Assembly: GCA_963082975.1 (NCBI GenBank)
Contig: OY720344.1
Location: forward strand, 29,981,172-30,045,171
Length of the DNA stretch: 64,000 nt
Source: Labia minor
Taxonomy: Eukaryota > Arthropoda > Insecta > Dermaptera > Spongiphoridae
Direction: 5' to 3'
Under the pieces are notes generated by a model. It was not told the DNA's origin and ran no database searches. It worked only from the letters and a program-made list of their open reading frames with translations. Both the position numbers and the translations under genes were made by a program. Of the stretch, positions 5,055 to 52,367 are shown piece by piece (within the stretch, counting starts at the first letter, position 1; every line of letters starts with the position of its first letter).

Positions 5055-5467
5055 TTGATGATGATAGGGAAGGTATTGTTTTCACACCAAATTTCACATG
5101 TGGAGATTTTTACATATCTCCACGAATCATGTATTTTGTTAACAGAAAAAAGTACTTTTAGCATGATGTCTGTCCGTCCGTCCGTCTGTCCATCTGTCCA
5201 TGGTGTGTCCGAATAGACGTATATAGCTTGAACGGCTCAACGGATATTGATAACATTTGATATATTTAATTAATGCATCAGTAGCATGAATTCATCCACT
5301 TTTGCTGTATATCCAAAAACCGGAAGTGGTAGTTTACAAAGTATTAATTTTATATTCATTGTCGGAAATTTTTTATTACATTAAACTAACTGGTGAAATA
5401 ATAAATACATTTAAATAAATATAATGTTGTTTTTAATTATTTTGAAATCGTCGGTCTGCCACAACTC
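5055..5467 (+). mobile_element. Helitron2-like repeat family I, diverged and shortened copy (D)
   Basis: Shares with the better copies at 7922, 26403 and 43302 the segment GGTATTGTTTTCACACC, the stem-loop GTGGAGAT/ATCTCCAC, the tetranucleotide array of GTCC/GTCT near 5169-5205, and the box AACGGCTCAACGG. The 5' tip (ACCGACCG) is mutated to GATGATGAT and the 3' end keeps only CGTCGGTCTG. It lacks the second internal repeat of the 5' module. It appears to be an old, internally deleted copy with no coding capacity. Confidence 0.7.
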
Positions 5468-7921
5468 ATTTTTAGTTTTAAATATAACCTTTGAAAAATT
5501 CTACTATATTATATTCTTTATTAAACTTTTTTTTTCATCAAGTTGTAGAAACATGAATAAGATTGAAAAGAATCAAAATTAAATGGAAAAGTCACAAACA
5601 AAATAAGAAGGACTTGGATAAATGAGTGTTACTGCCAAAAATTATTATATAATAACCATATAATGAAGAATATAATAAATTCTGTAGCTAAAAAATATAA
5701 TTATAATTGAATACTTGATTTTCACACATGTAAAACCGTGAAATTAATTTTTTTTTTTCTTAATTTATTTCAAAAAATAAATTTCATGGTTACAAATTTT
5801 AATTTCCACTCCAAAGGAAAAGCAATAATGGAGTTTTGTTTAATCATAGAAATATAACATTATTTCATTCTTTCATAAATCATTATCTTTATGAATATTT
5901 TAATAATAATATTTTTAAATAATAAAACGACACATTTATTTATTTTTTTATAGAATTATTGATATTCAAAGAAAATTTCAAAATGCAATTTTGAGTATAA
6001 CTTTGTAATAATAATAAAAATAAAAATATATGAATGATTTGTAATTCTAATTGATACATTATGTTTTCTATAATTGAAAAAATATACAGACCTTATGTTG
6101 TAAATAATCCATCTTTGGATGTGACTGTTGCCTTTCTACGGCAATCCATCATCGCTATTACTTGTACAATGAATTATACTTTGAATTGGTAGAGAGTAGG
6201 ATTGTCACCGGTTGTTAACTTGAAAGAGACAAATCATCACCAACATTTCGATTGGATATGATAATTGTCAAATGGCTCATATCATATATTACTATTATTA
6301 GTATGTATTATTCATTTTCCAATACCTCATGTGGAAGGAATGACCCCTGGAATGGTTTTTGTCAAGGTTGATTTATCAATAAAGAACAACACTATTGCTA
6401 ATATTTACGAGGTGCTGGTGTTGTAACTACCGAGATTGTTGACATTCATGATTGGTTGTTAATAACAGGGATACAACTTATTTAGTTAACGATTTATTTT
6501 TATTTCAGTTTTATATTAAAAAAAAAAAAAAAATAAACAGGATACAACACATAATTAACCTATTCTATTAATTTCATAATTTTTAATTAAGTTTCAATGT
6601 TAATTATAAGAATGAATTTGTTTTTTATTTCTTTTCTTTTTTTTTTAATTAAAAAAAAAAATTCAAATCATTAAATTTCATTTATGCAATTGGAAAAGGA
6701 AATTTGAACATCTGACATGTTCAAATGTTATAAATTGAACTAACCAACCACCAACTATGAATGAAATTGGTTTTATAGCTTTGTTATATATGATTGGATA
6801 TGAATCAGATCATAATCCAATTGTGCTCTGGCATATCACTAAGAGTTCAACTTTATAGGGGTTGAAATTGATTAAGGATGAATAATAGAAAATAAAACCT
6901 GAGTAATCAGTTATCAATATTATATTGCAACGGATAATTATACTACATATCCATTTTGAAATAGTGATTACATGTATTATGTTCATAAATGTATATCGGA
7001 ATAAATACTTAATCCATGTAATCTTTCTAAATACGGATATATGAGTAGATTTTCAGTTCAGATCATTAAGTCAGTTATTTCCGATTATTACTAATTTTTT
7101 TTTTAATTATTTTGTGAGATATTCATTTATATTAATTTTTATTTTTTTTTATTTTTTAAAGATATTTTATATTGATAAAGTGAAAAAGCCCCGTTTACGA
7201 TAAAGTTCAGTGTATATAGTTAAACTTCTTTCTTTTTTGCGACTTTTAAATTGTTTCTATTAATAATGACAACACGTTCTTTTATTTTATTAAAATTTCT
7301 GTATAGATGTCCTCAAAAAAATGAACAAGGTTTAATAAACCAATGTTTAATTTATATCATCATAGGACATCTTACAATTAGTTTAAAAAAATATTTCATA
7401 AAATTAAATAAAATGGGCTACCTTTTATAAATAGTATCAATAAATAAAATAAAGTTGATGAAAAATCGATTTCAATATAAGAGAGAACAGACAGACAGAC
7501 ATGCAGTGAAATTCATAAAAACGCTATAATTATAAAAACTATTTTTTAATGATATTTACCACGAATACAAAGTAACCAAATACGTCAAGAAATAAATAAT
7601 TCTATAAAATATGTGTATAAAGAGAATAGCAATTCAATATCATCAACAAAAACTTATTTTAGTTTTGCGAACCTAAACTTCAATTTAACTTTAAACTTTT
7701 CACTCATATATGTTATCTACGCAATTTTTTAAATTAAAATATTAGTTTTAATTTATAAATTTAAATAAAAAAAATATTATAAAAAAATATTACAAAATAA
7801 GAAAATATTAATTAATTATTTAATTAATTGAAATTAATTTGAAAGTAATAATCAGAATATTAATGGTTAAAAAAAACTATTTAAAATTTCAATACAATTT
7901 GAAATTAATATTTTCATTTGT
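5468..7921. other. AT-rich spacer
   Basis: No credible gene. Balanced-composition patch at 6100-6480 (CTACGGCAATCCATCATCGC; CACCGGTTGTTAACTTG) without coding potential. Short (CAGA)n at 7488-7502. The rest is low-complexity A/T. Confidence 0.5.
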
Positions 7922-8553
7922 TTTTACCGACCGACGATAGTAAGGGAGGTATTGTTTTCACATCAAATTTCACATGTGGAGATTTTTACATATCTCCACG
8001 AATCATGCATTTTCTTAACAGAAAAAAGTATTTTTAGCATGATGTCTGTCTGTCCGTCCGTCCGTATAGATGTGTACAGCCTGAACGGCTCAACCGATTT
8101 TGATGAAATTTGGTATATTTACTTAATGCATCAGTATGATGAATTGATCAACTTTTGGTGCAAATCCGGAAACCGGAAGTGGTAGTATTAGCGATCGACG
8201 ATAGGAAGGTAAGGGTTATTTTCACACCAAATTTCACCTGAGGAGATTTATTTATATATCACCACGAATCATGCACTTTGTATTGGTTTTACCCTCGAGA
8301 AAAATCATATTTATTAGTTTTTTCTTGATTTAAAATTATATGACGTCATCCAGTCATTCATGACGTCACAGCCTGGTCTTGCATATATATTATAAATAAA
8401 ATAAAATTAAAAATGTTTATATTTATTATTTATGTATCCATATCTGTTTTTTATTACATTAATAGATATATTAAAATTATTTGAAATTGTTTCTGTAGCT
8501 GCTAATTAATTTACTTCAAACCGTCGGTCGGTTCGGACCTGGCCACAGGTCAA
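7922..8553 (+). mobile_element. Helitron2-like repeat family I, near-complete copy (A)
   Basis: Begins TTTTACCGACCGACGATAG and ends CGTCGGTCGG then hairpin GACCTG-GCCA-CAGGTC (8536-8551). ACCGACCGACG at the 5' tip is inverted near, but not at, the 3' tip, with the hairpin outside it. That arrangement is the asymmetric inverted repeat plus 3' hairpin described for the Helitron2/HLE2 group. Inside are stem-loop GTGGAGAT/ATCTCCAC, a GTCC/GTCT array at 8045-8066, the box GATGAAATTTGGTA, CCGGAAGTGGTAG, and a second copy of the 5' module at about 8192-8280. No coding capacity, so non-autonomous. The 77-residue open frame across it is a by-product of the array. Confidence 0.8.
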
Positions 8554-10638
8554 CTTATTATTGTTAGTTTAACCAATGTACACAAAATTTAAAATAATTA
8601 AATTAATAAAATAATATGTTTGATGTAACCTTTATTGTTTCAAGAATAAATAGATATTTTTTAGCGTTTATTTACATACAGTCATACATGCATAGAAGGG
8701 TGTAGGGTGTTATATATATATATATATTAATTCTTTTGTTAATTAAAATAATACTTGGGATCTTGTAAATAATAACAATATATTTAATATATATAAAAAA
8801 TTTTAATTTGGAGAATATACATATAAATTTATAAATAGAGAGATAGATTATTTATAATTTAATTAAAATAAATTTTAAATTTTCTAAAAGAAAGGAAATA
8901 AATTCCTTTAGGTAAGTTTCGAGAGGGATGCGATAGGTGTACTTACTGAATGGCATCTTGGATCCCAAGTGAGTTTTAGCTGGAGGCTCTACACTCGACA
9001 GTATTAAATAAAAGCACAAGCCAAACACGAAATGTCAATTAATTTGGGACCAGCGGAGCTCCGGTGGGTGGGCCTCAAGCTTTAATTGAAGACCACCGGA
9101 CCCTTTTCTAAAACACCTCAAATTCACTTGGATACTTCTTGACATTTTAATTTAACCACTGTAATTATAGGAATCGAGTAATAAATTTTAATCACGCAAA
9201 CTCAGGGGGCAACCGTCTACTTGTTGACCAGATTCCCATCTCAAATAAATTCATTTTTTTTTCTATATATATATTTTAATTAAGTTACTTTCATTTTGTT
9301 TGACTAAGGTCCTAAATTATTATTATTATTACTGACGAAAACTCTTCTTTATAGGTAGATATATTTATTAATATATAATAAAATCTAGAATTATATTATG
9401 TATTATTTTTTTCATACATCTTTCACTAAAAAAATTTAGAAAATAGAAAAAAATATTAATCAGTATTATATGTTTGTAATTAATAATTAATATCATATTA
9501 TCTAGAATACTGGTGAGATTATATATATATGATATTATAATATATATATACATATAAATATATATTAATTTAACTAATTATTTCAGTGAATTCTCGTTCC
9601 TAATTGTACAAATCCATCTATGAATAGAAAAATAAATCGGCATTGAATTCTTTAAAAATAAAGTAGAAACTGAAAATATTTTTTATAGTATATCATTAGT
9701 ATTATAGAGATGAAGAGTGTGCGAAAATTACATAGTAATTTAATAAGTCTTTAATTAATGTTTCTTTTGCATTATGCAAATGATTTTATTTAGAATAAAC
9801 AATTAATTTTTTTAAAAACGAATTATTAAATGAAATTTTTTCGCATCAAAGGGTTATAAAATAAATATTTTCAATTAAAATTAGAAAATATCAAATGATT
9901 TAAATGAAATTTTAATGAAAAGTAGATCAAATTTAAGTGGTACTTAGATATTAAGCCTACCCACAGATTAAAAGAAGAAATAAAATGATAAATAATTAAA
10001 TCTATATAAATAATTTTTCATTAATTATTTTAATGACCTTTAAATGAATGTATGTAAATAGATAATAGGTACAATGACTAGAAGAAAACTTTATAAGATC
10101 AGTGTATAATAATATCATATACACTATAAACAAGTAAAATATTTAGATTAAATAGCAAATATAAAAACAAATGATTTTCATGATCTATTATCTGTAATGT
10201 CCTTCTTTGACATGCTTAATGTACTGACCTCTATTTACATTTACGTACTATTTCAATTTCACACATTGAAACATTTATAAATAATAAATTACCATTTATA
10301 GTACGAAACAATTATTTCAAATAAAATACAATAAGCAGAATAATAAATCTAGTTATTGTAATAAACTCAAATCGCTTATTAATATCGTTGTATTGTTTAT
10401 AATAAAAAAACACTGAGGGTTGGAAGGTTATAATCAAGGTTTTGAATGGCAATAATCCAATGATCTTTAAAGCCGATTCTTCTAAAGTGTTTATGTTTTA
10501 AAAATAAATTTATTTTTACCAAATATAATCAAAACCAAACAATGATTAGTTTTTTTTGATATTTTAATAAGTGAAAGATTATAAGACAATGTATATAATA
10601 AAAAAAAAATATATTTTTTTTTAATTATTATTTAACTA
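8554..10638. other. AT-rich spacer with a balanced island at 8925-9240
   Basis: 8925-9240 is the only complex stretch (GCGATAGGTGTACTTACTG; ACCAGCGGAGCTCCGGTGGG). It has no open frame and resembles no repeat in the window. It could be conserved non-coding DNA. The remainder is TA-rich, including (TA)n at 8711-8727 and 9521-9552. Confidence 0.45.
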
Positions 10639-14720: not shown

Positions 14721-14961
14721 AAATCAAGCAGCTGCAAGGTGTAATAATAACATCAATTATCATTCATTTTAAATTTTCTTCTTTTCTAAGAGATCTTATA
14801 ATGTGGCATAAAAGCTTCTTAAATGGGACACAACTAATTTTTGCTAGATCTTTAGCCAAAGAAATGTCCTTTCAAACATTTTTAAATTTAAAATTGATAA
14901 TGATTTGAAGAAGGGTTACTAATTTTTTTATTTTGTAGTATAATTTAGAGTAAATGAATTA

Positions 14962-16680: not shown

Positions 16681-16715
<35 letters not shown>

Positions 16716-18255: not shown

Positions 18256-18286
<31 letters not shown>

Positions 18287-24400: not shown

Positions 24401-26402
24401 TATTTTATTATAATTGGTTATAAATATTTTACGAAATACCCTCTTAGATATTATAACATATTCTCATTGTCTAGTTAGTTACAAATGGCCAGTATATAAT
24501 AAATAATATGTATATAAATACGTCATGCTTCTATCTAAATAACTCTTTACCATTTCATACATCATTGAGACAAACTCCATCCTTATTTATTTGAAATTCT
24601 ACTATGCCATCTAATAAATTAAATTATAAATATTATAGTTATAGTTGGCATGATTATTACTTTCAAAATGAGTTTTAGAAATAATATATGGATTTATAAT
24701 ACAAACTTATTTCAAATCAGACTAGAGAATTTATTTTTTGCAATGTCAAAAATTCAGAGTTTTAAAAATGATTGAAAAAAGTTAATTTAAAAATTTAAAA
24801 AACAAAATAGTGTGATTTCATTTGCAATGTAATAAAAGATAAATAGATTTATATTATTTTTTGATTATGATTTGATTAAACCAAAAAAAAAAAAACAACT
24901 TTTATCTCTTATAATTTGGAAAAGATATTTATCTTTATAATTTTGATAACTAAAGATTAAATTAGATTTCTTTTCAAAGATTAATAATTCATCTATAATA
25001 AGTTTTGTTTTTAATGAAATTTTCCAGTTCAAGTTATTTTTAATTTAAAATCCAGCTTCTATTTTAAAAGTCCCAGTGGAGTAAATAACACCCGTTTATG
25101 GACCAACGGGAAGATACTCCGGATTTGCAACTTTAATCTATCCCTATTGGTTGGAAACCCTTGAGATTAGTTTTTTTTTATTCTGTTTCTTTGTTGAGAC
25201 CCACACACAATTCCAAGCAATCAGTCTGAAATATCCACTCGGGCTGAATTAACATAATAACGCGTTGCTGGTGAATAAAAGTCAAGCCGATTGTATCTTC
25301 ATGCGAGGCCCTAAACTGTCCCTGGGCATTAAAATTGATTATTATAATATTCCGCGAATTAAATCGAAATTCGAATAGCTAACTAAAATAATCCGGTATT
25401 TGTACAAGATGTTTATCTGCAACGCCTAAACGGATACTCATTGTATGCAAGACGATGGGCTGGCTGTTGCTCACTCTCCTGGAAAAATTAATGGTGATTA
25501 TACCTCCTTCGGAAATGTTACATTTTGATTTAAATCTTATCGTTAAAGTTTTGGAAATTTATTAGCATGTCAAAAAACATTTTACTAACAGCATAATTAA
25601 ATTTATCTAAATTCACACAACAACATAGTTTATTAAATAATCCACAAACCAGATTTTTTTTTTTATTAATTTGCCTTTTTAATTTAAATCATCAATCAAT
25701 CATACTTAAAGAAGAAATAAAAAAAATAGACATTCTTTTTAAATAATCCAAAATAAACTCATGTCAAAATTAAATATTCATCTTCCTAAATTCAATTTAA
25801 CATAAATATTAATGAAATAAAAACAAAACAAAACATATCATTAAATTAAATATATATACCTTTCAAATTATTTGTTTATTTCTAGCAGCTATAATTATTA
25901 GATATAAGTATATACAACTAATAATTTATATTATTCAATGATTTTTGTTTATGATTCATTCTTTTGTATAAAGTATCGCCCGCAACATTTTTATTATTCT
26001 AAAATTAATTTGCACCCAAAACAATTGATATTAGTTTTTAATTTGAAACCAGATCAATTCAATATAAATTTAAGAAAAACTTATTTCTAAATTTTCTATT
26101 TTATTAATATTTTAATTAATATAAAAACATTCCATATTAACATAAATAAATCAGAGGTAGGAAATAATTTCTAAGATATGAGCTTTTTCTAATTTTTCTG
26201 AAAAAATAATGACACCAATTATATTAATAGTAATAAATATTCAATATGTATATATGCACTTATTTGGATTACTAAAATAGAAAAAACTTACATATTTATT
26301 GACATTCTGTGAAAACTTTTTGAGTATAAAACTTAAAAGTATAAATATATTAAACATAATAACATTATCACCAAATTAAATACATATTTATTATTAAATA
26401 AG
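21401..26402. other. Long AT-rich spacer with islands at 21720-22010 and 25040-25510
   Basis: No gene supported. 25040-25510 is the longest stretch of balanced composition in the left half (ACGGGAAGATACTCCGG; CGTTGCTGGTGAATAAAAG; ACGATGGGCTGGCTGTTGC) with no open frame. 21720-22010 is similar but weaker. The remainder is A/T low complexity. Confidence 0.45.
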
Positions 26403-27066
26403 TTGACCTGTGGCCAGGTCCGAACCGACCGACGGTTTGAAATAAATTAATTTCCAGCTACAGAAACAATTTCAAATAATTTTAATATATCTATTAATGT
26501 AATAAAAAACAGATATGGATATAACATAAATATTTTTAATTTTGTTTTATTTATAATATATAGCTGAAGTAGCCGGCGTTGCCGGCGTTACCCGAGGCTG
26601 TGATGTCATGAAGGGCTGGGTGACGTCATATAATTTTAAATTAAGAAAAACATAATGAAGATGATATTTCCCGAGGATAAAACCAATACATTCGTGGTGA
26701 TATGTAAAAAAATCTCCTTATGTGAAATTTGGTGCGAAAATAACCCTTCCCTTCTTATCGTCGATCGCTAATACTACCACTTCCGGTTTCCGGATTTGCA
26801 CCAAAAATTGATCAATTCATCCCACTGATGCATTAAGAAAATATACCAAATTTCATCAAAATCCGTTCAGCCGTTCAGGCTGTACACATCTATACGGACG
26901 GACGGACGGACGGACAGACGGACAGACGGACGGACGGACAGACATCATGCTAAAAATACTTTTTTCTGTTAAGAAAATGCATGATTCGTGGAGATATGTA
27001 AAAATCTCCACATGTGAAATTTGGTGTGAAAACAATACCTCCCTTACTATCGTCGGTCGATAAAAA
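26403..27066 (-). mobile_element. Helitron2-like repeat family I, longest copy (B)
   Basis: Reverse orientation. 5' tip ACCGACGATAG at about 27050-27060 (written CGTCGGTCG on the plus strand) and 3' hairpin GACCTG-TGGC-CAGGTC at 26405-26420. It has a longer GTCC/GTCT array (26893-26943) than the other copies. It also keeps a central segment missing from copies A and C: two tandem GCCGGCGTT units at 26573-26590 and ACCCGAGG, next to a TGACGTCA-like site. Non-coding. Confidence 0.8.
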
Positions 27067-28129: not shown

Positions 28130-28161
28130 ACCGACCGACGATAGTAAGGGAGGTATTGTTT
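28130..28161 (+). repeat. 32-bp stub of family I 5' end (E)
   Basis: Exactly the first 32 bases of the family I repeat (from ACCGACCGACG to GGTATTGTTT), preceded by TTTT as in the full copies, then unrelated sequence ATTTGAGAGACT. The break falls at the same base as in the stub at 30184-30215. Confidence 0.85.
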
Positions 28162-30183: not shown

Positions 30184-30215
30184 ACCGACCGACGATAGTA
30201 AGGGAGGTATTGTTT
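30184..30215 (+). repeat. 32-bp stub of family I 5' end (F), abutting family II
   Basis: Identical to the stub at 28130-28161 and preceded by TTTTT. It is followed at once by the 5' tip of a family II element, ACTTTCCCGC. The remainder of family I is not found after the family II element ends. Confidence 0.85.
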
Positions 30216-30920
30216 ACTTTCCCGCATACTTCGTATAAGGGAAGTATTGGAATCGTCAAAAATTTCAACTTCGAGATTTCGATAGATCTTGATGTTTTAG
30301 ACCTCCCTGAGTCGGAAAATACCATTTTTCGAATTATGTCTGTGTGTGTGTGTGTATGTATGTATGTAATGTCTGTGAGCAAATTTACTCAAAAACTAAT
30401 TAAGCTAGGACTTCGAAATTTGGTACATCGATATTATTCACAGTTTGTAGATTTCTATCAAAATTTCGTTAACCGGAAGTGGTACTTTACCTACACTGGT
30501 TGCGTTTACCTTTCAAGTAAAGTACCAGTTTGCTTCGAGATATTTGCTTCATATTTTGTATATAGATTTAAAAATATGAAAAAAATTGAGATACCAAATT
30601 TCATCATGATCTGACTACCAGAAGTGACATTTTACCTATACAAGTAGAGTAAACTGTAACTTTACTAAACAAGTAGCGTTTACCTTTTTTAGTAAAGTTA
30701 CAGTTTACTTCCAGATATTTTAAATTTAAAATCAGTTAACCGGAAGTAGCACTTTATTCTCTATATATATAAATGTTACCAAATATCAAATTTGACACCA
30801 ATAAACTAACACGAACTGGCTCTTTATCAATACCAAGTTTACACATTCTAAATATTCATTCACAACTCTTTATACAAATTTATATGCGGGAAACTCTAGG
30901 GGAGGACACTCCCGCTTTTT
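30216..30920 (+). mobile_element. Helitron2-like repeat family II
   Basis: TTTCCCGCATA at 30218-30228 is repeated inverted at 30883-30893, followed by hairpin GGGAG-GACA-CTCCC (30900-30913): the same asymmetric-repeat-plus-hairpin plan as family I with unrelated sequence. Inside are GTATTGGAATCG, GAGATTTCGATAG, a (TG)n/(TATG)n array at 30340-30368, CGAAATTTGGTACATCG and CCGGAAGTGG. Several stretches of AGTAAAGTTACAG / GTAAACTGTAAC form local inverted repeats at 30648-30720. The 134-codon frame running in from the stub looks like a by-product, with no known domain. Confidence 0.7.
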
Positions 30921-33806: not shown

Positions 33807-35429
33807 CACTTGCGTGCAGCTAAATCGACTCAACCCAAAAGCGCGAATAGAAAGTCTTATTTTTTTGAAATGGCTAAGCCGATATTTATAAAATGTATAT
33901 ATTTTTCAAGCTTGTTTATTTAGCTTTACATTGATATCAATATCAAGTAAATTGGTTGATTACTTTTTAAATTATTTGATCTGAATGACTGAACTGGAAA
34001 AAATGTTGTTCCTAGCTGCCGCTAATGCTTATTTTCAATTGCCTTATAAAATTCCATACAACCAATTATTCTTATTAATCGCATTTCATATGATTTTTGG
34101 ATTAAATTTACACAAATTGACAACCATTTTTATCAGAAAATCATGGATACAAATCCAGAGGTTGCCTCTCAAGTTGTTATTTTGATAAAACAGGGTCATT
34201 GCCAAAGAGAAGTCGCTCGTCTGTTGAACTGTCAGTCTGCTGTCTCAAGGATATACAGGAGGTTTCAGCAAACTGGTGGCTTTACTCGGAGACTAAATAC
34301 CCGCTGCCGTCGGTCAACGTCTGCAAGAGATGACCGTTTTATCGTTACGACGTCTCTCCGAAATCGCCATCTCACTGCCGTAAGTCTTCAGAAGCAGCTG
34401 AGAGAAGTTCGAGGTGTGGCTGACAGTCAGTGGAGAGTGAGAAGACGCTTGAAGGAAGCCAACCTCACTTGCAAAAGACCTGCCACTGGCCCGAAATTAA
34501 CCACAACCCACCGTTGCCCGAGAGCATCTCAATTGGAGTATCGACCAATGGAGGGCAGTTCTATTCACTGATGAGTGTAGAGTGTGCCTTTATGGTAGTG
34601 ATAGGTCGAGATAAGTCGAGTGTACAGGCGTCCGGGTGAGCGATTTTCCCAATGCTGTTGCATCTCTGAAACAGTCTCTTATGGTGGTGGTTCTTGCATG
34701 ATTTGGGGTGGCATTTCCTTGGACGGAAAAACAGACATTGTTTTTGTGCCTGGCGGAGGCCGTGGAGGGGGTCTAACATCTGACCGATATTTTGCATCAT
34801 GTTGTTCCCTACGCCGGATTCATTGGCGAAAATTTTTTATTGATGCATGATAATGCCAGGAGCCACACTGCGGTGGCCACTCGGCAATACTTGACTGAAG
34901 TTGGTATCGAGACCATGGAGTGGCCAGCGCTCAGCCCGGACATGAATCCAATAGAGCATATGTGGGACCACCTCAAACAAAGGGTACGATCAAGAAATCC
35001 CGCACCTTCGACCATTGTTGAGCTCCAAAGAGCTTTGTTAGAAGAATGGGAGAACATCCCCCAAGATTTTATAAAAAATCTTATAAGGTCGATGCGGGAT
35101 CGCATGAGGGCTGTCATTAAAGCTAAAGGGGGGAACACCAATTATTAAGAAAATAAATTTTCTTTATTATGATTAAAATTATTGTTTTATTTAAATTTTT
35201 AACATTCCTACTTTTCCTTTCCTTAACATCGTTTTTCACTTTCATTGTCATTCAGATCAAATAATTTAAAAAGTAATCAACTAATTTGCTTGATGTTGAT
35301 ATCAACGTAAAGCTAAATAAATAAGCTTTAAAAATATATACATTTTATAAATATTGGCTTAGCCATTTCAAAAAAATAAGATTTTGTTTGCGCGCTTTTG
35401 GGTTGAGTCGATTTAGCGGCACGCAAGTG
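33807..35429 (+). mobile_element. Tc1-like transposon, 1,623 bp, TA target duplication
   Basis: Tips CACTTGCGTGC / GCACGCAAGTG with long inverted repeats: left 33807-33989, right 35247-35429, about 183 bp each with scattered mismatches. TA at 33805-33806 and 35430-35431 is the target duplication. Between the arms lies a broken DD34E transposase. Size and structure fit the Tc1 family, with arms longer than the shortest Tc1-type repeats. Confidence 0.93.
34143..35148 (+). pseudogene. Tc1-family DD34E transposase, frameshifted
   Basis: Starts MDTNPEVASQVV at an ATG at 34143. A helix-turn-helix with GHCQREVARLLN and QSAVSRIYRRFQ follows, then the GRRRSTSARDD-like linker (here CRRSTSARDD) and a second DNA-binding helix ending VRRRLKEANLT. 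The catalytic core is present: VLFTDE (first D, about 34571), GGGSCMIWGG, LLMHDNARSH (second D) and NPIEHMWD (E), with 34 residues between the second D and the E. The stop is TAA after GNTNY at 35146-35148. Reading requires at least three frame changes (about 34510, 34605-34620 and 34785), and a TAA lies near the second, so no complete enzyme can be made. A cut-and-paste integrase acting in the nucleus is the family role. Confidence 0.93.
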
Positions 35430-36462
35430 TATATAAAAGGCAATGTCTGTGTGTCTGTGTGTGTGTCTGTCTGTCTCTTATAGACTCAAAAACTACCCGT
35501 CCGATTACGGTGAAACTTTCAGCGATTGTTGTGGGCATCCCAGGGAAGGTTTTAGTGTAGTTAAATCCAAAATTAATTTATCCAAAATTAATTTAATTAG
35601 TAATATATTGGTAAAAGTCTGTAGTTACACAAAACTATCGACAGATGGCGCTACATATAATTTTCCAAATTCAAATATTTTTAATTTTTTTTAAACTTAA
35701 TATTTCTAACTTTGTATTACAATACAATAATGAGACGGAATTGTTGTGTGTTAAATTAGATTTTATAAATTGAAAACCATTAGTTATACTCTTAAGTTAT
35801 TTAGTTATTAACAAGATAAGAATTGTTGACTATAAAAACCAATTTGTTTTTAGGTAAGAATATATTATTCTATTTATTGTAATTATTTAAAATTTTTCTA
35901 ATGTAATAAGATGTTTTTAGCAAACAAATCTGTCTATAGTCCATTTGATTAAACCTACCATCTTATATATAGATTGTCGTGTATAAGATATTAGGGGTGA
36001 GGTATTTTATAAGAAAAATTGGGTTAAAAATAAGTTTAATTATTTGGTAGCACTCTGGATTGAATTTAGAATAATTAAAAGGGTTATTGAAACCGCGTAT
36101 GTTGATTAGGGAATGACAAGATTGAATAGGTTCAATTAAAAAATGCTTATATAAAATTATAACTAAAAATGATTTATTTAATAAAACTATAAGAATTTAA
36201 ATTACAATTTAATTAATTTTTTGTGAATAAATAAACATATATAAAAAATATATAAAATTTGAATTTTCATTTATTCATTCATTTAAAATTATTTTTCGAT
36301 TGTTCCTTTAAAATAACCCCTCTTAGGGGGTCGGAAGGGGAGGCAACATAAGGGAATTTTCTTTCTCTTTGTTATTGGGAAAAACCAGGGGGGGGACAGT
36401 CTTACCAGGAAAAACCCAAATTGTCAGCGTCCACTCTGGGGTTTTAAACAGTTTTAAAGGAA

Positions 36463-36572
36463 ATGTTAATTATAAGTTCATTTCTCAACGAGTTGTAACT
36501 TTAAATTATTTTTATTAATGTTAATTATAAGTTCATTTCTCAACGAGTTGTATCTTTAAATTATTTTTATTA
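36463..36572 (+). repeat. 55-bp tandem duplication inside the Helitron
   Basis: Two head-to-tail 55-bp units starting ATGTTAATTATAAGTTC at 36463 and 36518. They differ by a single base (AACTTT versus ATCTTT). Local duplication within the cargo of the Helitron. Confidence 0.9.
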
Positions 36573-36883
36573 ATTTAATTAATTATAATTAATTTATAGC
36601 TAATAATAGTTTATTATAGCTAATAATTTTTTTAATTTTTAGTGTAATTTGCACGATCATTATTTATATAAAAAAATAAACACATTTTGCAATTTTAATT
36701 TTTAGTGTAGGAAAATTTGTTGTTGATTAAATTAAAATATATTTTCCAAGAAAACAAATATATGTCTTATCTACTTATACTGATTGAAACTTTCAACCAA
36801 ATACTATGTATCACTCGGGGGTACAGGGGGCGGAGCCCCCGTCTAGGTGTGAAGAGCGCCTGGAAGGCGCTCTGATCAGCTAG

Positions 36884-37081
36884 TTATTTATATCTTCGGA
36901 TTTGAAATTGATGAATTTTAACATTTTTCTATATTTCATTTAACAAGTTCGAAGTGAAAATGTTTATTTTATTTCGCAAATTATGATTTAAAACTCAAAA
37001 TAGCTCAATTGATTAAGGATTTAGTAAATAAATAAAAATAAGAACTTTTTTCAATCATAATAAACATTTAACTAAAAAATT
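36884..37081. other. AT-rich spacer
   Basis: Nothing recognised between the Helitron end and the LINE scrap. Confidence 0.4.
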
Positions 37082-43301: not shown

Positions 43302-43916
43302 TTACCGACCGACGATAGTAAGGGAGGTATTGTTTTCACACCAAATTTCACATGTGGAGATTTTTACATATCTCCACGAATCATGCATTTTCTTAACAGA
43401 AAGTATTTTTAGCATGATGTCTGTCCGTCTGTCCGTCTGTCCGTCCGTATAGATGTGTACAGCCTGAACGGCTCAACCGATTTTGATGAAATTTGGTATA
43501 TTTACTTAATGCATCAGTGGGATGAATTGCTCAACTTTTGGTGCAAATCCGGAAACCGGAAGTGGTAGTATTAGCGATCGACGATAGGAAGGGAAGGGTT
43601 ATTTTCACACCAAATTTCACATGAGGAGATTTTTTTATATATCACCACGAATCATGCAATTTGTATTGGTTTTATCCTAGACAAAAATCATATTTATTAG
43701 TTTTTTCTTGATTTAAAATTATATGACGTCACAGCCTGGTCTTGCATATATATTATAAATAAAATAAAATTAAAAATGTTTATATTTATTATTTATGTAT
43801 CCATATCTGTTTTATATTATATTAATAGATATATTAAAATTATTTGAAATTGTTTCTGTAGCTGGAAATTAATTTACTTCAAACCGTCGGTCGGTTCGGA
43901 CCTGGCCACAGGTCAA
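43302..43916 (+). mobile_element. Helitron2-like repeat family I, near-complete copy (C)
   Basis: 5' ACCGACCGACG at 43304, 3' CGTCGGTCGG then hairpin GACCTG-GCCA-CAGGTC (43899-43914). It carries the GTCC/GTCT array at 43420-43450, GATGAAATTTGGTA, CCGGAAGTGGTAG and the second 5'-module copy at 43574-43670. Compared with copy A it lacks 20 bases between two TGACGTCA-type sites, leaving one site (about 43723). Very similar to copy A otherwise. Confidence 0.82.
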
Positions 43917-44872
43917 ATTATTTTATTAATATATTTATCTTCTTAAGAAAACACTTTTTGGATATCTATCAATCATGTATTTTAATTTTCTTACTAAATT
44001 TTTTGTTTTAAATTATGTTCATCTCTGAACATTTCCTATATTATTTACAAGAGGAAAGAGAAGAACAAACTTAGGTAACATAATAAATAAACTGTAGCTA
44101 TCAATAGAATTCGACGCAGAAAAAAACTCGTTACTCCACATTAGTGATCAAGACCCACTCACACTATTCCAGTTAATATAGATAAAGATTAATAATCATA
44201 AATCAAGGACTAATTTTTTTTTAATGTATTTTTTAGAATATAATTTAAAGTACTTTGCATTTTTAAAAGAGAAGCTATAAAAAAACTTTAATTTAGTGAG
44301 ATTTCCGGATTTCTTCAAACTGAATCATCACTGAAAAATATTTAGCTGTTTATTATTATACATAAAAGGGTTATAAAATAAAATTAAAATAAAAATATAA
44401 TAATGTTATTGTTTTATTATTATATTTTGAGATATTTTGGATATATCATCATTTTTATAATATGAATGTCAATTCTTTCTTTTTTTAATGATCTGTGAGC
44501 ATTTCTTGGAATTTTCGCTTTCCTTTTTCTTATATTAATGTTTATAATTTAAATTTTTATCTCCAAAAACGAATATTAATTAAGCGCCTACAAATTGATA
44601 ATAAATCATTTTTTTAACTGACCTGAATAGAAATATTGTTTTTCCAATTTTTTTTTTGAGATGCTTTAAATAATAATGTATATATTTCATAAGTATATAT
44701 AAACAGATAAATACATAAATAAAACTAATTTTTATTTTTTTTTTCTGAGAATTGAATTTGCCATTCAAATTATCAGTCAAAATAAACTATTTTCATTAAA
44801 TAATAAATATTATTTTATAAAGATATTTTTAAAAGGAAAGAATACTTGAATTTTTAAGTTATTTGAATTTTT
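43917..44872. other. AT-rich spacer
   Basis: No gene or repeat recognised. Complex patch GATCAAGACCCACTCACAC at about 44145. Confidence 0.45.
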
Positions 44873-45460
44873 ACTATCTCGTAAGAGATAGTATGCGATC
44901 ACGAAAATTTTCGATGTTGAGATTTTGATGTTTTTATACGTTTTGAAGGTTCCTGAATCATTTTCACTAAGGTTGAGATAAATGTCTGTGTGTGTGTGTG
45001 TATGTGACCAAGATTACGGAAAAACGGTTTGAGCTAGAATGATGAAATTTGGCACATGAGCATATTATTCAAAATTCGTAGTTTTCAACTTTTGAGAAAT
45101 GTAGCTCAACCCGAAGAGGGTCATTACTTACAACGTTTTGATTTTTTTTCCTCTAAAGTGACCGTAAAAATAAAGATATATGTTTGATAATTTTTCACAT
45201 GATTAATAATTGTATAAAACTGCTATATATATAATTTCAGCTTGATTGATTCGCTGAAATTACCAGAATTAATTTTTTAACACTGCAAATCTCACGCGCC
45301 AACATGTGACGTGGTGCGATCAACAAAAAGCCAAACATGCGCTGGTTTAATATTTATTATTTATAATTTATAATTAATTAAATTTAATTTAAATATAATA
45401 TATTATGTTATTTAATCCAATTCAAATTGCGAGATAGTCGAGTGGAGACACTCCAGCTAA
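44873..45460 (+). mobile_element. Helitron2-like repeat family III, copy 1
   Basis: Opens with hairpin ACTATCTC-GTAA-GAGATAGT, then GCGATCACGAAAATTTTCG and GTTGAGATTTTGATG, a (TG)n array at 44985-45005, GATGAAATTTGGCACATG and TTTTCAACTTTTGAG. Near the 3' end GCGAGATAGTCG inverts the 5' tip, followed by hairpin TGGAG-ACA-CTCCA and GCTAA before T. It shares over 90% of its sequence by eye with copy 2 at 51738. Non-coding. Confidence 0.78.
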
Positions 45461-46061
45461 TTTATATATATATTTATAATATTCAAAATCTTTTAAATTG
45501 TGAAAATTTAATGATATGACAAGATATCCAGTTCTAATTTGCACCTAAAACCCAAACACTAATCAAATTTTTTATTATTGAAAATAATTTATGAAATATT
45601 CAGGAATAGAAATAATAATAATAATGTTGATATGGATTTTTAACAATTATTTTAAGTTATAATTTTTTCATGAATTTTAAACGGTCATTTATAATGATAG
45701 TAATAAATTTATTTCTGCTATTATTTTTTTGCATAAATAAATAAAATAAATAAATTTTCTTATATGTAGTCTAGACCTAGTATATTAAAATCATTAATTT
45801 TCATATTACTTTAAGATTTCTAATTGAATTAATTACACATTAAAAATATTTATTAAAAAAAATATATGCATAATTTATTGAGGATAATTTTATTTTTATT
45901 TATTTTTAATTAATCATCTTTTCTTAAGAATATTTATCTTAACAACTCACAAAATAATAGAAAAAGGTGGCCGCTGCTCGTCCATCTTTTCCCTTAAGGT
46001 CTCGTCAGATTTTTATTTGCCATATAAGGTTCCTAAAAAGGATTGTAAGTAAATATCCACT
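45461..46061. other. AT-rich spacer
   Basis: No gene or repeat recognised. Confidence 0.4.
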
Positions 46062-46307
46062 TTGAAATGCGCCTTTAAAGCCACTCCTGGCAGGCCATTG
46101 ACGAAGGACCCTCGTCGAACTGAAGATCGTAGACAGATCATTCGGAGAGATGCGAATGAAGAAAAAAGACCCCCGGAATGCAGCAAAGCAGGACGGCGGA
46201 TTCTCGGAAGTCTTGCTATAACGGACAATGGACAGGGGACAGGGGACAACAGGTGGCCGGCCAAACTGCCAATCCACTATCAAAGGACGGAACCCTTTGA
46301 TTTTTAA
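46062..46307 (+). other. Unassigned open frame in GC-rich island
   Basis: The only strongly GC-rich block for many kilobases (about 45965-46310). One 81-codon frame starts MKCAFKATPGRPLTKDPR and continues RRTEDRRQIIRRDANEEK, basic and arginine-rich, vaguely like a transposase DNA-binding segment. Overlapping frames are open on the other strand too, as expected of GC-rich DNA. GGACAATGGACAGGGGACAG is a small tandem of GGACA units. A transposon scrap and an exon are both possible. Confidence 0.25.
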
Positions 46308-46449
46308 TATCACACCATGCACAAATAATTTTTATTACAAAATTTATTAATAAGGAGACTATAGTCAATAATTAATTATACAAAAAAAATGTAATATTTA
46401 ATTGCTAAAAATTTGATAAAATTGATTAAATTAAAAGAAATTTCAAATA

Positions 46450-46975
46450 AAGTAAATGTACCAGTAGTTGACATTTGTACATTTAACAACGCATATAATA
46501 AGACTTATATCTCTCTAAACATTTCAGTACATGAAAGTAATTCCTTCTCTATTGAAGATGTGTAAATATAAAAGTTTTGAATCATAATCTGAGTAAATGG
46601 CACAACATTTACTTTTTATAGAATCGAACAAATAGATATTTTAATATTTTGTTCTTCGAATGCTCAAGGAAGCAAATCACTAATTTTTATTGTTTTTTTT
46701 AGTATTGACATCAATATTAAATATTATTAATTGAATGTCCATATTACCTAATTTTAAGGGTGTCAACTACTGGTGCTTTTAGATGCTGATGCTAAAAAAA
46801 AATAAAAAATAAAAGAAATAGAAAATTACATTGATTTGCAGATAAATTCTTCATTATTAACCAATGAATCATATCACCCAAAACTCAAATTGATATCGGA
46901 TAAAAAACAGAAGATATCAAATTTTTCTCATAAATTTGTCTTTATAGTGTCAACTATTGGTTCAAATAAGTTCAA
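46450..46975. mobile_element. Probable MITE or MITE pair with AGTAAATGTACC tip
   Basis: AAGTAAATGTACCAGTAG at 46450 is followed by TTGACATTTGTACATTTAAC. Inverted or variant copies occur at 46596-46616 (AGTAAATGGCACA / CATTTACTT), 46757 (GTGTCAACTACTGGTG) and 46950 (GTGTCAACTATTGGTTC). The right boundary is not resolved: the unit may be only 167 bp (to 46616) or run to about 46975. Tip and motif match the palindromic MITE at 14962. Confidence 0.45.
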
Positions 46976-48092
46976 ATACAATAGTCATATTACAATATTT
47001 CATAATACAACAAATATGGTACATCTCTTATTAAATGGAACTAAAATGGACAAACCATTGATTAAAAATCATTATCTATTAGGAATTTTGATTATTCATG
47101 CTTCTATTCTATAAATTGTTGAAAACAACATAATAATAAAATAATTTACCCCTCAAGGACCTCCATTTCAATTTCTATCATTATCTCTAATTTCCCCATT
47201 AATACAATTGAAGCGAGGAATATTTCCTACGTGCGTGGATGCCCCTTGGAGAATTAACCTGAATTCCATATAATAATCAGAATGTTTACCTTCGATTTAT
47301 CTATCGACTTTCTCAAAGCTACCTTGATGATTGGGTAATCGGAAGGCCCTTCGACTCCAACAGCTACCAGAGACTGTCGATTATTCGTGCTTCCATTATG
47401 TAAATTACTTGAAAATGTAAGATAATAAATGCTTATCCACGAGTTCGTTTCTGTGTTCATCTATCATACAAAATAAATATTCTCTATATCCTTTAAAACT
47501 ATTAGCAAAGATTATTTTTTTTCTTCTAATATTACACCTACCTATCTTATATATTTTTATGTCATAGGAATGAATAAATAAAACAATTATCAGATTTTAG
47601 ATTAATTAAAAATGTATATAAAATTTAAAAAAAAAAAAAATAATTATCCAAAGAGTTATTTTGGACAAAAAGATATATCTGAAAATAAAAGTTAAATCCT
47701 ATTAGTTTTATGAGAGGCAATAATGATTTTTAATTGATGATTTAGTTTTCTAAATAGGTGCCATAAAACTTTCACAAGCTGAAACTTAAAAAGTTAAAAT
47801 AATACAAAATCAGGTAAAAAAGAATTGAAACATAAGGACGGGAATTCATTACTCCTATACTAATTCATAGATCATGAATATAAATGGGTGTGTATGTATA
47901 TATATATGGAATATATATATATTTATAAGAATATGATTAAATTTGGAATACTTGTAAAATGCTTTTAAAAGTCGAAGCAGATGAGAGATTTTAATCTATT
48001 TTCAATAAAATAATGATAAATGAATTTTTTTTTTCTATTATTGTTTTTTAAAAAATAATGTATCTTATCTTATTATTCTAGCAAAAATTGTT

Positions 48093-48119
<27 letters not shown>
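46976..48119. other. AT-rich spacer with balanced island 47150-47460
   Basis: 47150-47460 is of balanced composition (CTACGTGCGTGGATGCCCC; GGAAGGCCCTTCGACTCC) with a 68-codon minus-strand frame lacking recognisable motifs. (TA)n at 47895-47922 and 48091-48119. Confidence 0.4.
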
Positions 48120-48123
<4 letters not shown>

Positions 48124-48500
48124 GTTTAGGTTTCCGTGAAAGTTATTGTTATTATTACTATCAGATTTTTCAGGGATATAATCACGTATTTTTGTGAGAT
48201 TGTTTTCTCGACGTTTTGGCACCCATTTTGGCGCCATTTTCAAGAGATTATTTAGGTGGGAATATTTTTTGGGATTCTGGGTCTTAGTCTGTGTGACCAA
48301 GGGTTAATATCGGGATTTTTAGTTGATAGGTTGGATGGTTTTGTACTCACTGCGTTGCTGTGGAGCTCCGAAGAATCCTGGGCAATCCTGACTGGCATAC
48401 GTCCGTACCGGACAATAGCTCGAGGCCAACTGGGACCCGACCCTTTGGATTCTACCTGAGCTTGCTACCTGCGCATGCGCAAGGGGCTTGTGTGCATAAA
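48120..48500 (-). repeat. Possible Penelope-like or other retroelement scrap
   Basis: On the minus strand TGAAAATGGCGCCAAAATGG and GCCAAAACGTCGAGAAAAC translate as LKMAPKWVPKRRENN. Such MAP..PKRR text near the end of insect retroelements, Penelope-like ones in particular, is familiar, but the match is short. The neighbouring 48250-48500 is GC-richer and unassigned, ending in GCGCATGCGC at 48472-48481. Confidence 0.3.
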
Positions 48501-48866
48501 TACGAAATATTATAAATAAAATAAAATTATAAATATTTATTTTAATAATATTTTGTAATCAAATTAAGAAATATATATTATGTTATATCCACATGCCATA
48601 CTTTTATGTCTTTCAGTGCATTAATATGTACGTTGAAGGGCTGTATTTTTTATGACTATTTTTTTTAATTTATGTTGTTAAATTATTTGAAATTGTTTCA
48701 TATATTTTGTCGTTTATTTATTTTAAATAATAATCTTACTTAAGTACCGAGCAGCGTCTCCATGAACCAGGTATTAATTAGTATTAGAGTATTACCAGTC
48801 AAGCCCGATATAATAAGGAATAATTTTTCCTAATGACCGAGCGGCAGCTCGGTGAACCAGGTTCTA
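48501..48866 (+). mobile_element. Family IV Helitron-like 3' region with two tandem hairpin ends
   Basis: TATTATAAATAAAATAAAAT and AAATTATTTGAAATTGTTTC match the 3' third of family I. They are followed by two related ends: ACCGAGCAGC...GAACCAGGTATTA (48746-48776) and ACCGAGC-GGCA-GCTCGGT then GAACCAGGTTCTA (48836-48866). The second is a perfect hairpin, the first is decayed. The start of the element was not found; it may be interrupted by the material at 48120-48500. Confidence 0.5.
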
Positions 48867-51737
48867 TACTATATATATATAGTTGTAGATAAAATTAAAA
48901 TTCCCATGAAATAATCTTGAAAGTAATAAATATATTCATTCTTTTTAATATAATTATTTCTTAATCAAACATGGATGTAAGTGGATTATAAATTGAATGT
49001 AGATTAGCCAAGCCAATTTAAGAAAGCATGTTCGTCGCATCAGTAATACTCAACAATAAGATAAAGAACAAGGCATTGTTTTATCTGGAACAATACAATA
49101 CATGTAATAATATATTCTAACCAACGAGTACTTAATGGCTTACAAAGCAAGTAATTAAAAAGAAAAATGAAATGTACATTTTATTACATATATTTATTTT
49201 CTTTATCTTTTTATTAAAACAAATTTATAATTCTTAAGGAATTAAAAATCTATTAATTGAAATTTATTGGATTTGCATTTATTTAGCCCCTATTTCTCTA
49301 TTAGATTTTATTAATGATATAAATTATATATGTTTATATTATTTTCATAATTAATTTTTAAAGAATATATAAATTTTAAATGAAAACAAACCACTTAATT
49401 TTTGATATTTGTGAAATATGATAAGAAGAAAAGAGAGACAGAGAGTACGAGTATAATTTTGACAACCTAATGAGTTGATTAATATTAGAAAGGATTATGC
49501 CAAAAGTATTAACAAAAGGCAGGTAGGTGGGAATGGAGCGAAGGCGTTCTCTCTCCCCTGGACATCAATCTGGATCAGATAAATTATCCATCTCTCTCTC
49601 TCTCTTTCTCTCTTTCTCTCACTTACACACTTCAAGTTCAGGATATAATCTTTAATTCCTGTTAGACAGTAAGCGGATTTAAACTTATGCATTCCTTCGT
49701 CCTCCTTTTTTTTTTAATCACAACTTCATTAGTAATCGGTGTATGAATACAAATTTGTCATCCACATTTTAATATTTCTTAATATTTTAATTCTGTTAAA
49801 AAATAATTTAATACGATTTAAGCAAAGAAGAAATACTAATCTATATGGAACCATAAATCTTAACGAGAAATCTGAAAGTTTCACATTTATTTTTCTAAAT
49901 ACATTTATAATTTATTTAAATTTTTTTTTTTCATAATGGCCTTTCAGTTAAATTTGTATGAAAAAAAAGATATTATAATGACGAAACAGAAACAAAATAG
50001 TAATATCATAAAATTAATAATAATTATTAATTAAAATAAAAATAATTGATAAAATGAATGTCATTTGTTACTTTAAATAAAACTATAATAATTTCATTAA
50101 TTTTATATTTTTGATTTTTGATCCACTTTTTTAAGAGTTGATTTCATAAATAGTACCTATATTTAAAAATTAAAATGATGATTGGTTAAGCTTATCAAAT
50201 ATTTGATTATAATATAAAAATATTCAGAAATATTTTATATTTCTTCTATCTTTTGATAATCTAATCTTCAAGAACATTTTTTTTCTCCCTATCGTTTGGA
50301 GAGATTAATTTCTTCGATGCTAATTGACTATTTAGTAGAGAGGTTATTGCTCAAATTACCAAAGACACAATAGCTTGTTGATTAGAAAGTATGATGCCAT
50401 TTAAAAATTATGTCAATACGTAGCTCTTGTATTTTAAGCAATTCATCATCCATTTGAAATCATTTAACATTTTTTCCCTATTTTTATATGAATACACATT
50501 TCTATTATTTTTTGTAGTATGAACAAATTTTAATTTTATTTACTTAATATTAATATGTATAGTTTATATTTTTACCTATATAGATAATAAGTAATTAATT
50601 CGGTTTTTTTTATCCTTTTTCATTTCATTATCTTACTTTGTATATCTAATTATTTTTAATGATTTGTATTATGATTATGACAATTATTATATTATTATTA
50701 TAAATATTTATAATATTTATTTTATTTTAAGAAACTCTTAAATTGAATTGATTTAGATGTTATAGAATTGAAATAAAATTATATGAAATAGTTTATTATA
50801 AAATTTTTTTTCAAAATTTATAATTATACACGTTTTTGAGAAAACAATCAATTTTACAAAAGTGAAGTCAATTGCTGTTCAATATTAATTGCAAAATTTA
50901 TTTTTATATTTTTTTATCTGTAGTTTGAATTTCTAAAGATTATATATTTAAATTTGAATTTCTTTGAAATTATAGTTTGTCAAAGAAAACAACTTAATTT
51001 TTATTTATTAATATATTTATTTTTTATTCTTATAGAGATATTCTTAGGTACTATTTGTAAATAAAAAATACTAAATAAAATTATTTTGAATTAGTGATAA
51101 AAATTTAGCAAAATATAAACTTAGTATTCAATCAAACTTATAGGATTTGAAATTTATAAACGAAAAAAAATTACTAATAAATACGAACTCAAAAAAAAAA
51201 AAATTTCCAAAATAATAATAATTATTGGTACTATTTTATTCAATTTTAGAATAATGTTATAAAAATGATACCTTCTTTAGTATTTTCTAAAATTAAGCCA
51301 ATAAAATCTTCTATAAAATTTTCTTTTGAAAAACCTGTTGAAAACATGATTTATAAATACAAATTAAATAGAAAAAAAAAAGTGTTCATAGAAAATACGA
51401 AGGTAGACAGACCACGGTCCTCGTTTCCCTTTGAAAAATCACACCTATTCTTGTGAATAGAATTCCAAAGAGATTTACTTTGATTTAGAACTCCTAAAAA
51501 TGGAATTCTCCCTAGGCAAATGGATTCGCTGCGTGCTCGAGTAATGCCCTCCCTATCTGCCTTGGCGCGTTTCTTCACAATAGCTTGTAAATACGTGACC
51601 GTTCATGCCCGTTTCCATTAACTACTCAAGTGTTTTGTTCTATGCATAAGAGACGGAACCATTCTTGTTGACTTGAACAAATTGATTCTTGTTTAGAAAA
51701 AAAGTCTCAATATTTTAAAAAATGTTTATCTATTTTT
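48867..51737. other. AT-rich spacer
   Basis: No gene supported. (CT)n at 49590-49620. A balanced patch sits at 51400-51640 (AGACCACGGTCCTCGTTTCC; TGCCTTGGCGCGTTTC) without an open frame above 75 codons. The remainder is low complexity. Confidence 0.45.
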
Positions 51738-52367
51738 ACTATCTCGCCAGAGATAGTATTGCGATCACGAAAATTTTCGATGTTGAGATTTTGATGTTTT
51801 TATACGTTTTGAAGGTTCCTGAATCATTTTCACAAAGGTTGAGAAAAATGTCTGTGTGTGTGTGTGTATGTGTGTGTGTATGTGTGTGTGTATGTGTGTG
51901 TGTATGTATGTAGACAAGATTGCGCAAAAACGGTTTGAGCTAGAATGATGAAATTTGGTACATGGACATTATTCAAAATTCATAGTTTTCTATCAACTTT
52001 TGAGAAATGTAGCTCATCCGGAAGTGGGTCATTACCTACAACGTTTTGATTTTTTTTCCTCTAAAATGACCGTAAAAATAAAGATATATGTTTGATAATT
52101 TTTCACATGATTAATAATTGTATAAAACTGCTATATATAGAATTTCAGCTTGATTGAATCGCTGAAAGTACCAGAATTAATTTTTTAACACTGCAAATCT
52201 CACGCGCTAACACGTGGTGCCATCAACAAAGAGCCAAACATGCACTGGTTTAATAAATTTATTAATTTTAATTTATAATTTAATTAATTTAATTTAATTT
52301 AAATTAATATATGATATTTAATTCAATTCAAATTTGCGAGATAGTCGAGTGGAGACACTCCAGCTAA
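51738..52367 (+). mobile_element. Helitron2-like repeat family III, copy 2
   Basis: Opens ACTATCTC-GCCA-GAGATAGT, a perfect 8-bp stem, then GCGATCACGAAAATTTTCG. It carries a long (TG)n/(TATG)n array at 51850-51913, GATGAAATTTGGTACATGG and CATCCGGAAGTGGGTC. It ends GCGAGATAGTCG then hairpin TGGAG-ACA-CTCCA and GCTAA (to 52367) before T. The inverted CGAGATAGT/ACTATCTCG pair is internal to the hairpin at the 3' side, an asymmetric repeat. The array is longer than in copy 1. Confidence 0.8.
51850..51913 (+). repeat. (TG)n/(TATG)n microsatellite inside family III copy 2
   Basis: Alternating TG blocks interrupted by TATG. It sits at the same internal position as the shorter array of copy 1 (44985-45005), so it expanded within the element. 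Confidence 0.95.

Follow-up and report, generated by a model that had tools for sequence, protein, structure and literature searches.

Three DINE-1-like repeat families with a common body in the genome of Labia minor and recurrent solo heads of family I

A window of 64 kb from the genome of the dermapteran Labia minor (contig OY720344.1, positions 29,981,172 to 30,045,171; about 25% G+C) carries three repeat families, I, II and III, which we consider to be HINEs, non-autonomous DINE-1-like relatives of Helentrons. One of them, family I, also occurs across the genome as solo heads. We put the probability of this assignment, together with the mechanism proposed below for the solo heads, at about 80%. 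T-run targets, matching copies of the tips, and a concentration of solo heads behind the 5' hairpin of family I were directly observed. The recurrent solo heads of family I are new here, and the shared plan of the families is already known for DINE-1. The window contains three full copies and one old copy of family I, one copy of family II, and two of family III (Table 1), and none of its open reading frames (ORFs) that begin with a start codon reaches 150 aa. Genome-wide counts refer to the 604-Mb assembly of 71 contigs.

Families I-III follow one order: tip, simple array, GAAATTTGGTA, CCGGAAGTGG, inverted tip, and hairpin. Over seven copies, the distance from tip to array is 110-121 bp and that from GAAATTTGGTA to CCGGAAGTGG is 58-68 bp, with the decayed motif forms of the old family I copy and of IIIa included. 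The preliminary description of this DNA had proposed four families on one plan; the near-constant spacing confirms the plan for I-III, while family IV yielded just a weak 3' match. Exact matches to CCGGAAGTGG number six in the 64 kb, all within these elements (mean of 100 shuffles, 0.00), and IIIa is without one. Besides the core of Ia listed in Table 1, the core is found at 43488-43565, 26777-26854 (minus strand), 30415-30482, and 51950-52027. A scan for inverted tips with hairpins that was blind to the families returned seven places, six of which are family I-III elements, and missed the old copy; 40 shuffles gave a mean of 0.5 and a maximum of 2.

The anatomy of the elements supports the earlier Helitron2-like reading, with asymmetric subterminal inverted repeats (subTIRs), a 5' inverted repeat, an array, a 3' hairpin, a T-run target, and no long ORF. 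The 5' copy of the subTIR is terminal and the 3' copy internal; the repeat measures 11 bp in families I and II and 9-10 bp in family III, slightly short of the printed 11-15 bp. The 5' inverted repeat is a perfect 8 bp in family III (-6.5 kcal/mol) and interrupted in family II (-4.5 kcal/mol). The block A microsatellite is GTCY in family I and TG/TATG in II and III. A 3' stem-loop is present in six of the seven copies and decayed in 5055-5470, and its sequence differs between I and II/III: the hairpin of Ia is identical in Ib (43899-43914) and Ic (26405-26420, minus strand), and that of family III, the same in IIIa (45440-45453), lies in a stretch homologous to the 3' end of family II. Of 60 family I heads sampled, all stand behind TT and 54 behind TTTTT, whose frequency in the window is 0.017; at 30 core loci with 29 distinct family I heads (one inner unit), TT stands before 29/29 and TTTTT before 24/29.

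The bodies were aligned with the tips and the simple array removed, against dinucleotide shuffles as the null. The array was left out because a reversed-window control matched family III through the TG-repeat (E 1e-10). For the three family pairs, the alignments exceed the shuffles on both sides of the array, with z scores of 7.2, 7.2, and 17.0 on the right (each 0/1000 shuffles) and 5.7, 4.3, and 5.8 on the left (0, 2, and 0 per 1000), the weakest being the left part of I versus III; between-family identity over the whole alignment is just 46-59%. The AT-rich part, which the preliminary description had counted as common to all, has to be removed from this body, since the 3' thirds of I and II fail to align (chance level, 443/1000 shuffles). 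The 3' thirds of I and III align weakly (20/1000), and those of II and III align well (z 5.2).

Conservation within the body is block-like. Right of the array, uninterrupted stretches of 11 and 10 columns are invariant; by permutation, P is 0.0015 for the longest stretch, and 0/20000 permutations matched the summed squares of run lengths. The corresponding P values left of the array are 0.022 and 0.0016. This pattern suggests, but does not prove, selection on the body. The blocks may be kept for a function such as transcription or recruitment of a helper, an explanation that we consider possible but clearly short of even odds. The invariant runs stand within otherwise diverged sequence, ACCGGAAGTG is listed as an ETS motif (PMC7946360), and the conservation of the DINE-1 core was taken as functional by its authors. 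However, the comparison covers just three lineages, and the ETS-type motif is lost in IIIa.

The tips had been called unrelated, which was correct for family I and incorrect for the other two. The tips of II (ACTTTCCCGC) and III (ACTATCTCGC) agree in 8/10 bases, and their 3' ends, inverted tip included, are homologous (0/5000 shuffles as good). The tip of family I, ACCGACCGAC, agrees with that of II in 5/10 bases and with that of III in 4/10, and its 3' end matches those of II and III at chance level (4022 and 1215 of 5000 shuffles). The two differences between the II and III tips recur in the 3' copy and in the 5' hairpin arm (by eye), and the arm of family II is without one base of the perfect complement (by eye). 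Since the same differences occur in the 5' tip, the 3' copy, and the hairpin arm, we conclude that the tips of II and III drifted together and were not exchanged.

True exchange, in which recombination or template switching would have put different tips onto one body, is an unlikely explanation of the differing ends. It would fit the tip of family I, which is unlike those of II and III, and its 3' third, which is unlike that of II, on a body that is nevertheless common; the family I 5' hairpin arm TAAGGGAGGTATTG also resembles the arm of family II (31/5000 shuffles), and composite copies exist. Young family I is itself a composite: an inner second 5' unit starts after CCGGAAGTGGTAGTATT at the same place in Ia, Ib (43573-43665), and Ic (26685-26769, minus strand), shows 83.5-86.7% identity to the outer 5' end, and is absent from the old copy, whose identity to the young copies is 73-76% and whose tip and hairpin have decayed. 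Three of the 30 core loci (L012, L015, and L017) are family II copies by their tips, and in each of them a family I head lies 253-256 bp beyond the core start; the family II copy of the window is without that head. L012 and L017 were read as family I nested at a T-run. In L012, family II resumes after the nested family I, which has lost its 3' end at a T-run, and in L017 the 3' side passes into other DNA. In L014, family I is inserted in family I at a T-run (by eye). On the other hand, the 3' ends of II and III are homologous and their tips differ by matched point changes, no mix of a 5' tip and a 3' end from different families was seen in the window copies or, by eye, in the core loci L006, L007, L012, L014, L017, and L030, and vertical divergence accounts for the remainder. 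The repeated swapping of ends proposed earlier is therefore not needed for II and III, for which diverged homologous 3' ends suffice; the mosaicism of family I is real, with no clean tip exchange in the copies read.

The solo heads consist of the first 29 bp of family I between T-runs in other DNA, and two of them lie in the window (Table 1). Neither these two nor the inner 5' unit of young family I figured in the preliminary description. Across the assembly, the spaced core pair has 21,247 exact copies (reversed pattern, 0), and intact heads number 18,438 for family I and 5,832 for family III in its GCCA-loop form. Family I heads depart from the family sequence 863 times as GTTT/V and 858 times as GTTTT/D, where the slash marks the point of departure. 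Among 20 heads read of each type, 18 and 15, respectively, were solo, with no continuation into family I, and the remaining 2 and 5 continue into it. The estimate for the genome is about 1,420 solo heads (1,026-1,636 at 95% sampling limits). In L081, one of the 18, another family I head stands a few bases behind. Earlier departures, GGTATT/H, number 334, and 8 of the 20 read do not continue; by eye, L117, L118, and L123 prove to be forms with internal deletions, and L122 sits within a family I copy. At L123 (G000:C1:35578077-35578225), the head, the 3' subTIR, and the hairpin are all retained in a family I derivative of only about 80 bp, a near-minimal complete element.

Fewer family I heads depart beyond these points: 172 at a control base shortly after the GTTTT (GTTTTCAC/B) and 102 at the next T-run (ATTTTT/S). 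In family III, 471 heads depart after GTATTG/D and none of the 20 read is solo, though the hairpin is perfect; the difference between 33/40 in family I and 0/20 in family III is significant (Fisher P 2e-10). Thus, a hairpin without a T-run (family III, one departure point, 20 read) shows no solo-head effect, and neither does a T-run without a preceding hairpin (second T-run of family I, C/G counts). Solo heads were also found inside other elements, namely in family I at L072, L073, L076, and L122 and in family III at L069. The uninterrupted window sequence represents the empty site of L069, L073, L076, and L122, which is a T-run (by eye). The nested sites L073, L076, and L122 show no target duplication beyond the T-run ambiguity (by eye), which leaves exact insertion borders ambiguous.

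Solo heads might instead be leftovers of full insertions that were later deleted between the internal GTTTT and the T-run of the 3' flank. In its favour, solo heads have a T-run at either end, and T-run joints exist elsewhere (L117, L118, and L012). However, such deletion should also use ATTTTT, where departures are at background (102 for C or G, compared with 172 for three bases, in a control without A and T continuations), and, by eye, the targets of L073, L076, and L122 match the uninterrupted copy in all but the length of the T-run. We rate a later loss of full copies as an improbable source of the solo heads. Miniature inverted-repeat transposable elements (MITEs) or other terminal inverted repeat (TIR) transposons, which would also have inverted tips and under whose name such elements were earlier described (PMC4067079, PMC2374699), were rejected as a very improbable identity, because the 3' copy is subterminal with the hairpin beyond it and the nested cases show no duplication; no TIR ends with target duplications turned up.

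The canonical Helitron (Helitron1), with TC and CTRR ends between A and T and no inverted ends, was likewise rejected, as families I-III have inverted tips and begin with A after T; family III ends in CAGCTAA/T, a partial likeness only. The plan of I-III, different subTIRs included, is that of DINE-1 (INE-1, mini-me) of Drosophila, which has 13-bp subTIRs, a partial inverted repeat beside the 5' subTIR, a block A interrupted by a (CCGT)n(CTGT)n array, a conserved core of about 90 bp, variable central repeats, a 3' stem-loop, a TT target, and no ORF (PMC2374699). Five subTIRs are described among 11 species, and D. willistoni has three subtypes that follow one plan with different subTIRs; the parts of that account available to us do not mention solo heads (PMC2374699). 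A DINE-1 core query was matched as well by 8/2000 shuffles for family II, 71/2000 for IIIb, 274/2000 for IIIa, and 1273/2000 for family I. Homology to the Drosophila core is thus marginal with family II alone and is not claimed.

Under the rule that members of one HINE family have identical subTIRs of 11 bp or more (PMC4067079), I, II, and III are separate families. They share with HINEs and Helentrons the subTIRs, the 5' palindrome or inverted repeat, the 3' palindrome, and the T-rich target without duplication (PMC4067079). Autonomous partners are reported there, more than 95% identical in Culex and 98% for DINE-1s, whereas none was found here; bypass and composite transposition are discussed, and head-only insertion is absent from the known parts of that paper (PMC4067079). 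The oyster Cg_HINE elements, in several families, also have a 5' subTIR, a complementary inverted repeat, a 4-nt microsatellite, a 3' subTIR, and a palindrome, but contain satellite-like tandem arrays, which were not noted in I-III, although family II has degenerate central repeats (PMC7492417). In Calliphora, two DINE-1-like families, Helitron2_Cv and Helitron3_Cv, share one fly genome, and GTCY repeats, subTIRs, and a hairpin are described for Helitron2_Cv; in the parts seen, no body common to the two is reported (PMC3630058). Further cases are those of Fusarium (PMC5148889) and a moth (PMC4344730). The literature searched yielded no account of HINE insertions that are solo or head-only, recurrent ones included, which does not prove that none is in print. 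A literature search on the core strings returned nothing but papers with unrelated titles, Rfam gave no match at gathering scores, and searches for relatives gave no match in public viral contigs and two chance-like matches, to bacterial DNA, in public genome contigs.

We propose that families I-III are moved in trans by a Rep/helicase made elsewhere. Rep would recognise the subterminal inverted tip and nick at the boundary between T-run and A, one strand would be peeled 5' to 3', and a T immediately beyond the 3' hairpin would mark the end of transfer. The families would be diverged lineages of one ancestor. Their tips would drift, with changes in the 5' tip matched in the inverted copies, as II and III show. 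The imperfect 5' hairpin of family I, with GTTTT directly after it, would resemble the normal end, and some transfers would stop there, inserting about 29 bases between T-runs. We infer both the Rep-driven rolling-circle transfer and its premature stop, in which the hairpin with a T-run directly after it probably acts as a false terminator. Nested insertion and joints at T-runs, both seen in several copies, would build the mosaics. One-ended events have a precedent in the reconstructed Helitron Helraiser, in which the left end is essential, the right end is dispensable, truncated and read-through products arise, and the hairpin helps as a terminator without being essential (PMC4778049). Helraiser is, however, a canonical Helitron (TC/CTAG), and its truncations are single events, with no recurrent 29-bp product in the parts available (PMC4778049). 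We tentatively suggest, at slightly less than even odds, that ACCGACCGACGATAGTAAGGGAGGTATTG, the 29-base start of family I, is a complete micro-transposon when flanked by T-runs: it would hold a nick site and a small hairpin, the 3' arm of which mimics the 3' subTIR, and the T-run behind it would serve as terminator.

Several points weigh against the HINE assignment and its premature stops. The 5' hairpin of family I is weak and interrupted (-1.6 kcal/mol). In II and III, the 5' ends compared on their own do not exceed chance (571 and 271 of 5000 shuffles), and the kinship of these tips therefore rests on the 8/10 bases and the 3' ends. The genome searches detect exact heads only, and the departed heads that were read are the first listed, all on contig C1, a non-random sample. 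The departure counts cover families I and III; for family III they cover a single departure point, and 0/20 permits up to 17% of its 471 departures. The control at the next T-run counts C or G alone, and copies continuing with A or T are therefore hidden. In addition, no autonomous element with I-III ends was found in 30 loci (3.3-3.6 kb) with matches to PF14214 and six 10-kb regions. Among the 30 loci, only two show anything resembling I-III ends: L057 has a 3' end of family I together with a II-like hairpin (the latter by eye), and L058 has a single loose match of the II type. Four of the six 10-kb regions gave nothing beyond loose matches to the I-III tips; of the remaining two, L147 has no blastn match to the window and L148 holds a whole family III copy next to its Rep DNA. 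No endonuclease domain was detected at E 0.01 in four long ORFs scanned, those of L065 and L066 included.

An autonomous Rep/helicase copy with these ends, which the preliminary description had recommended looking for, was thus not found in the loci examined, and PF14214 has 104 Rep-like matches in the genome. The four scanned ORFs contain Rep and PIF1 helicase domains. RGSPH, a Helentron signature (PMC4067079), is present in L058-L061, L065, and L066, of which L061 and L065 are one locus, and thus in two of the four scanned ORFs (L065 and L066). At L148 (1060-1260; G000:C9:23418300-23428200, Rep on the plus strand), a complete family III copy lies directly before Rep-bearing DNA, and the left flank differs from those of the related copies L065 and L147; this copy may reflect transduction by end bypass.

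Family IV had been said to share the 3' third of the other families. The match, to the 3' third of family I, is weak, with 0/1000 shuffles as good but a z of 3.9 in AT-rich sequence, and the nhmmer E value of 0.006 compares with 0.03 for the best reversed-window match; a 5' end of family IV was not found in the window. A Rep/helicase element with a 1652-aa open frame lies at L064 (8373; G000:C9:43362000-43371900), for which the PF14214 search gave several matches of equal score. CTTAAGTACCGAGC, downstream of this ORF, resembles the family IV-like 3' motif (window 48741 on), and the element is a possible partner of family IV, judging from this motif.

Other repeats are present in the window. 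Family V (35430-36885 and 52677-53683) starts with AAAAGGCAATGTCTGTG, has two strong 3' hairpins, and ends in CAGCTAG/TT. It resembles a canonical Helitron in its CTRR end and has a TG/TCTG array in addition. As a relative of the body, it gave 11/2000 shuffles against II and chance level against I and III, and its 3' end gave 19/5000 against III in one of nine 3'-end comparisons; we claim neither relationship. A decayed Tc1/mariner-type transposase at 34050-35145 (DDE_3 E 4e-12, HTH_Tnp_Tc3_2 E 2e-07) lies in the most G+C-rich part of the window; in 10 window ORFs, Pfam searches detected a transposase of the Tc1 type but not Rep. A long near-perfect palindrome (30648-30709, 26-nt arms, 96%) lies among the central repeats of family II. 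Two further repeat pairs are located at 18958-19053/57619-57714 (88%) and 56929-57112/58650-58833 (97%).

Table 1 Repeat elements and their parts in the 64-kb window (position 1 is the first base of the window).
Feature	Position	Strand	Remarks
Family I, old degenerate copy	5055..5470	+	nhmmer 395.6 bits, copy itself included in model
Family I, full copy Ia	7926..8559	+	TTTTT precedes; 3' border approximate
Conserved core of Ia, GAAATTTGGTA to CCGGAAGTGG	8105..8182	+	
Inner second 5' unit within young family I (Ia)	8190..8284	+	z 19.6
3' hairpin of Ia	8536..8551	+	GACCTG GCCA CAGGTC
Family I, full copy Ic	26397..27061	-	3' border approximate
Solo family I head, 32 bp (29 bp + TTT)	28130..28161	+	TTTTT before, unrelated DNA after
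Solo family I head, 32 bp	30184..30215	+	abuts family II 5' end
Family II element	30216..30918	+	tip ACTTTCCCGC, degenerate central repeats
3' hairpin of family II	30900..30913	+	GGGAG GACA CTCCC
Family I, full copy Ib	43304..43922	+	97.2% to Ia; 3' border approximate
Family III, IIIa	44873..45462	+	
Family IV-like 3' part	48480..48870	+	hairpin CCGAGC GGCA GCTCGG; weak match to 3' third of I
Family III, IIIb	51738..52369	+	
3' hairpin of family III	52347..52360	+	GAGTG GAGA CACTC

The solo heads bear on the question of how the 3' end of Helentron-type elements is recognised. The 18,438 intact and about 1,400 head-only copies form a natural mutagenesis set in which the stop signal is readable from the breakpoints, and a hairpin without a T-run (family III) can be contrasted with a hairpin and T-run (family I). 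If the tentative suggestion of a micro-transposon is true, such a unit would have been copied into more than 1,000 sites, the Helentron stop signal would be a hairpin with an adjacent T-run, and the 5' inverted repeat kept in DINE-1-like elements would serve as an inbuilt second terminator from which new short elements and mosaics arise. The solo heads suggest a route by which small rolling-circle units and mosaic families originate, and the common body with its drifting tips provides a series for the co-evolution of tip and transposase.

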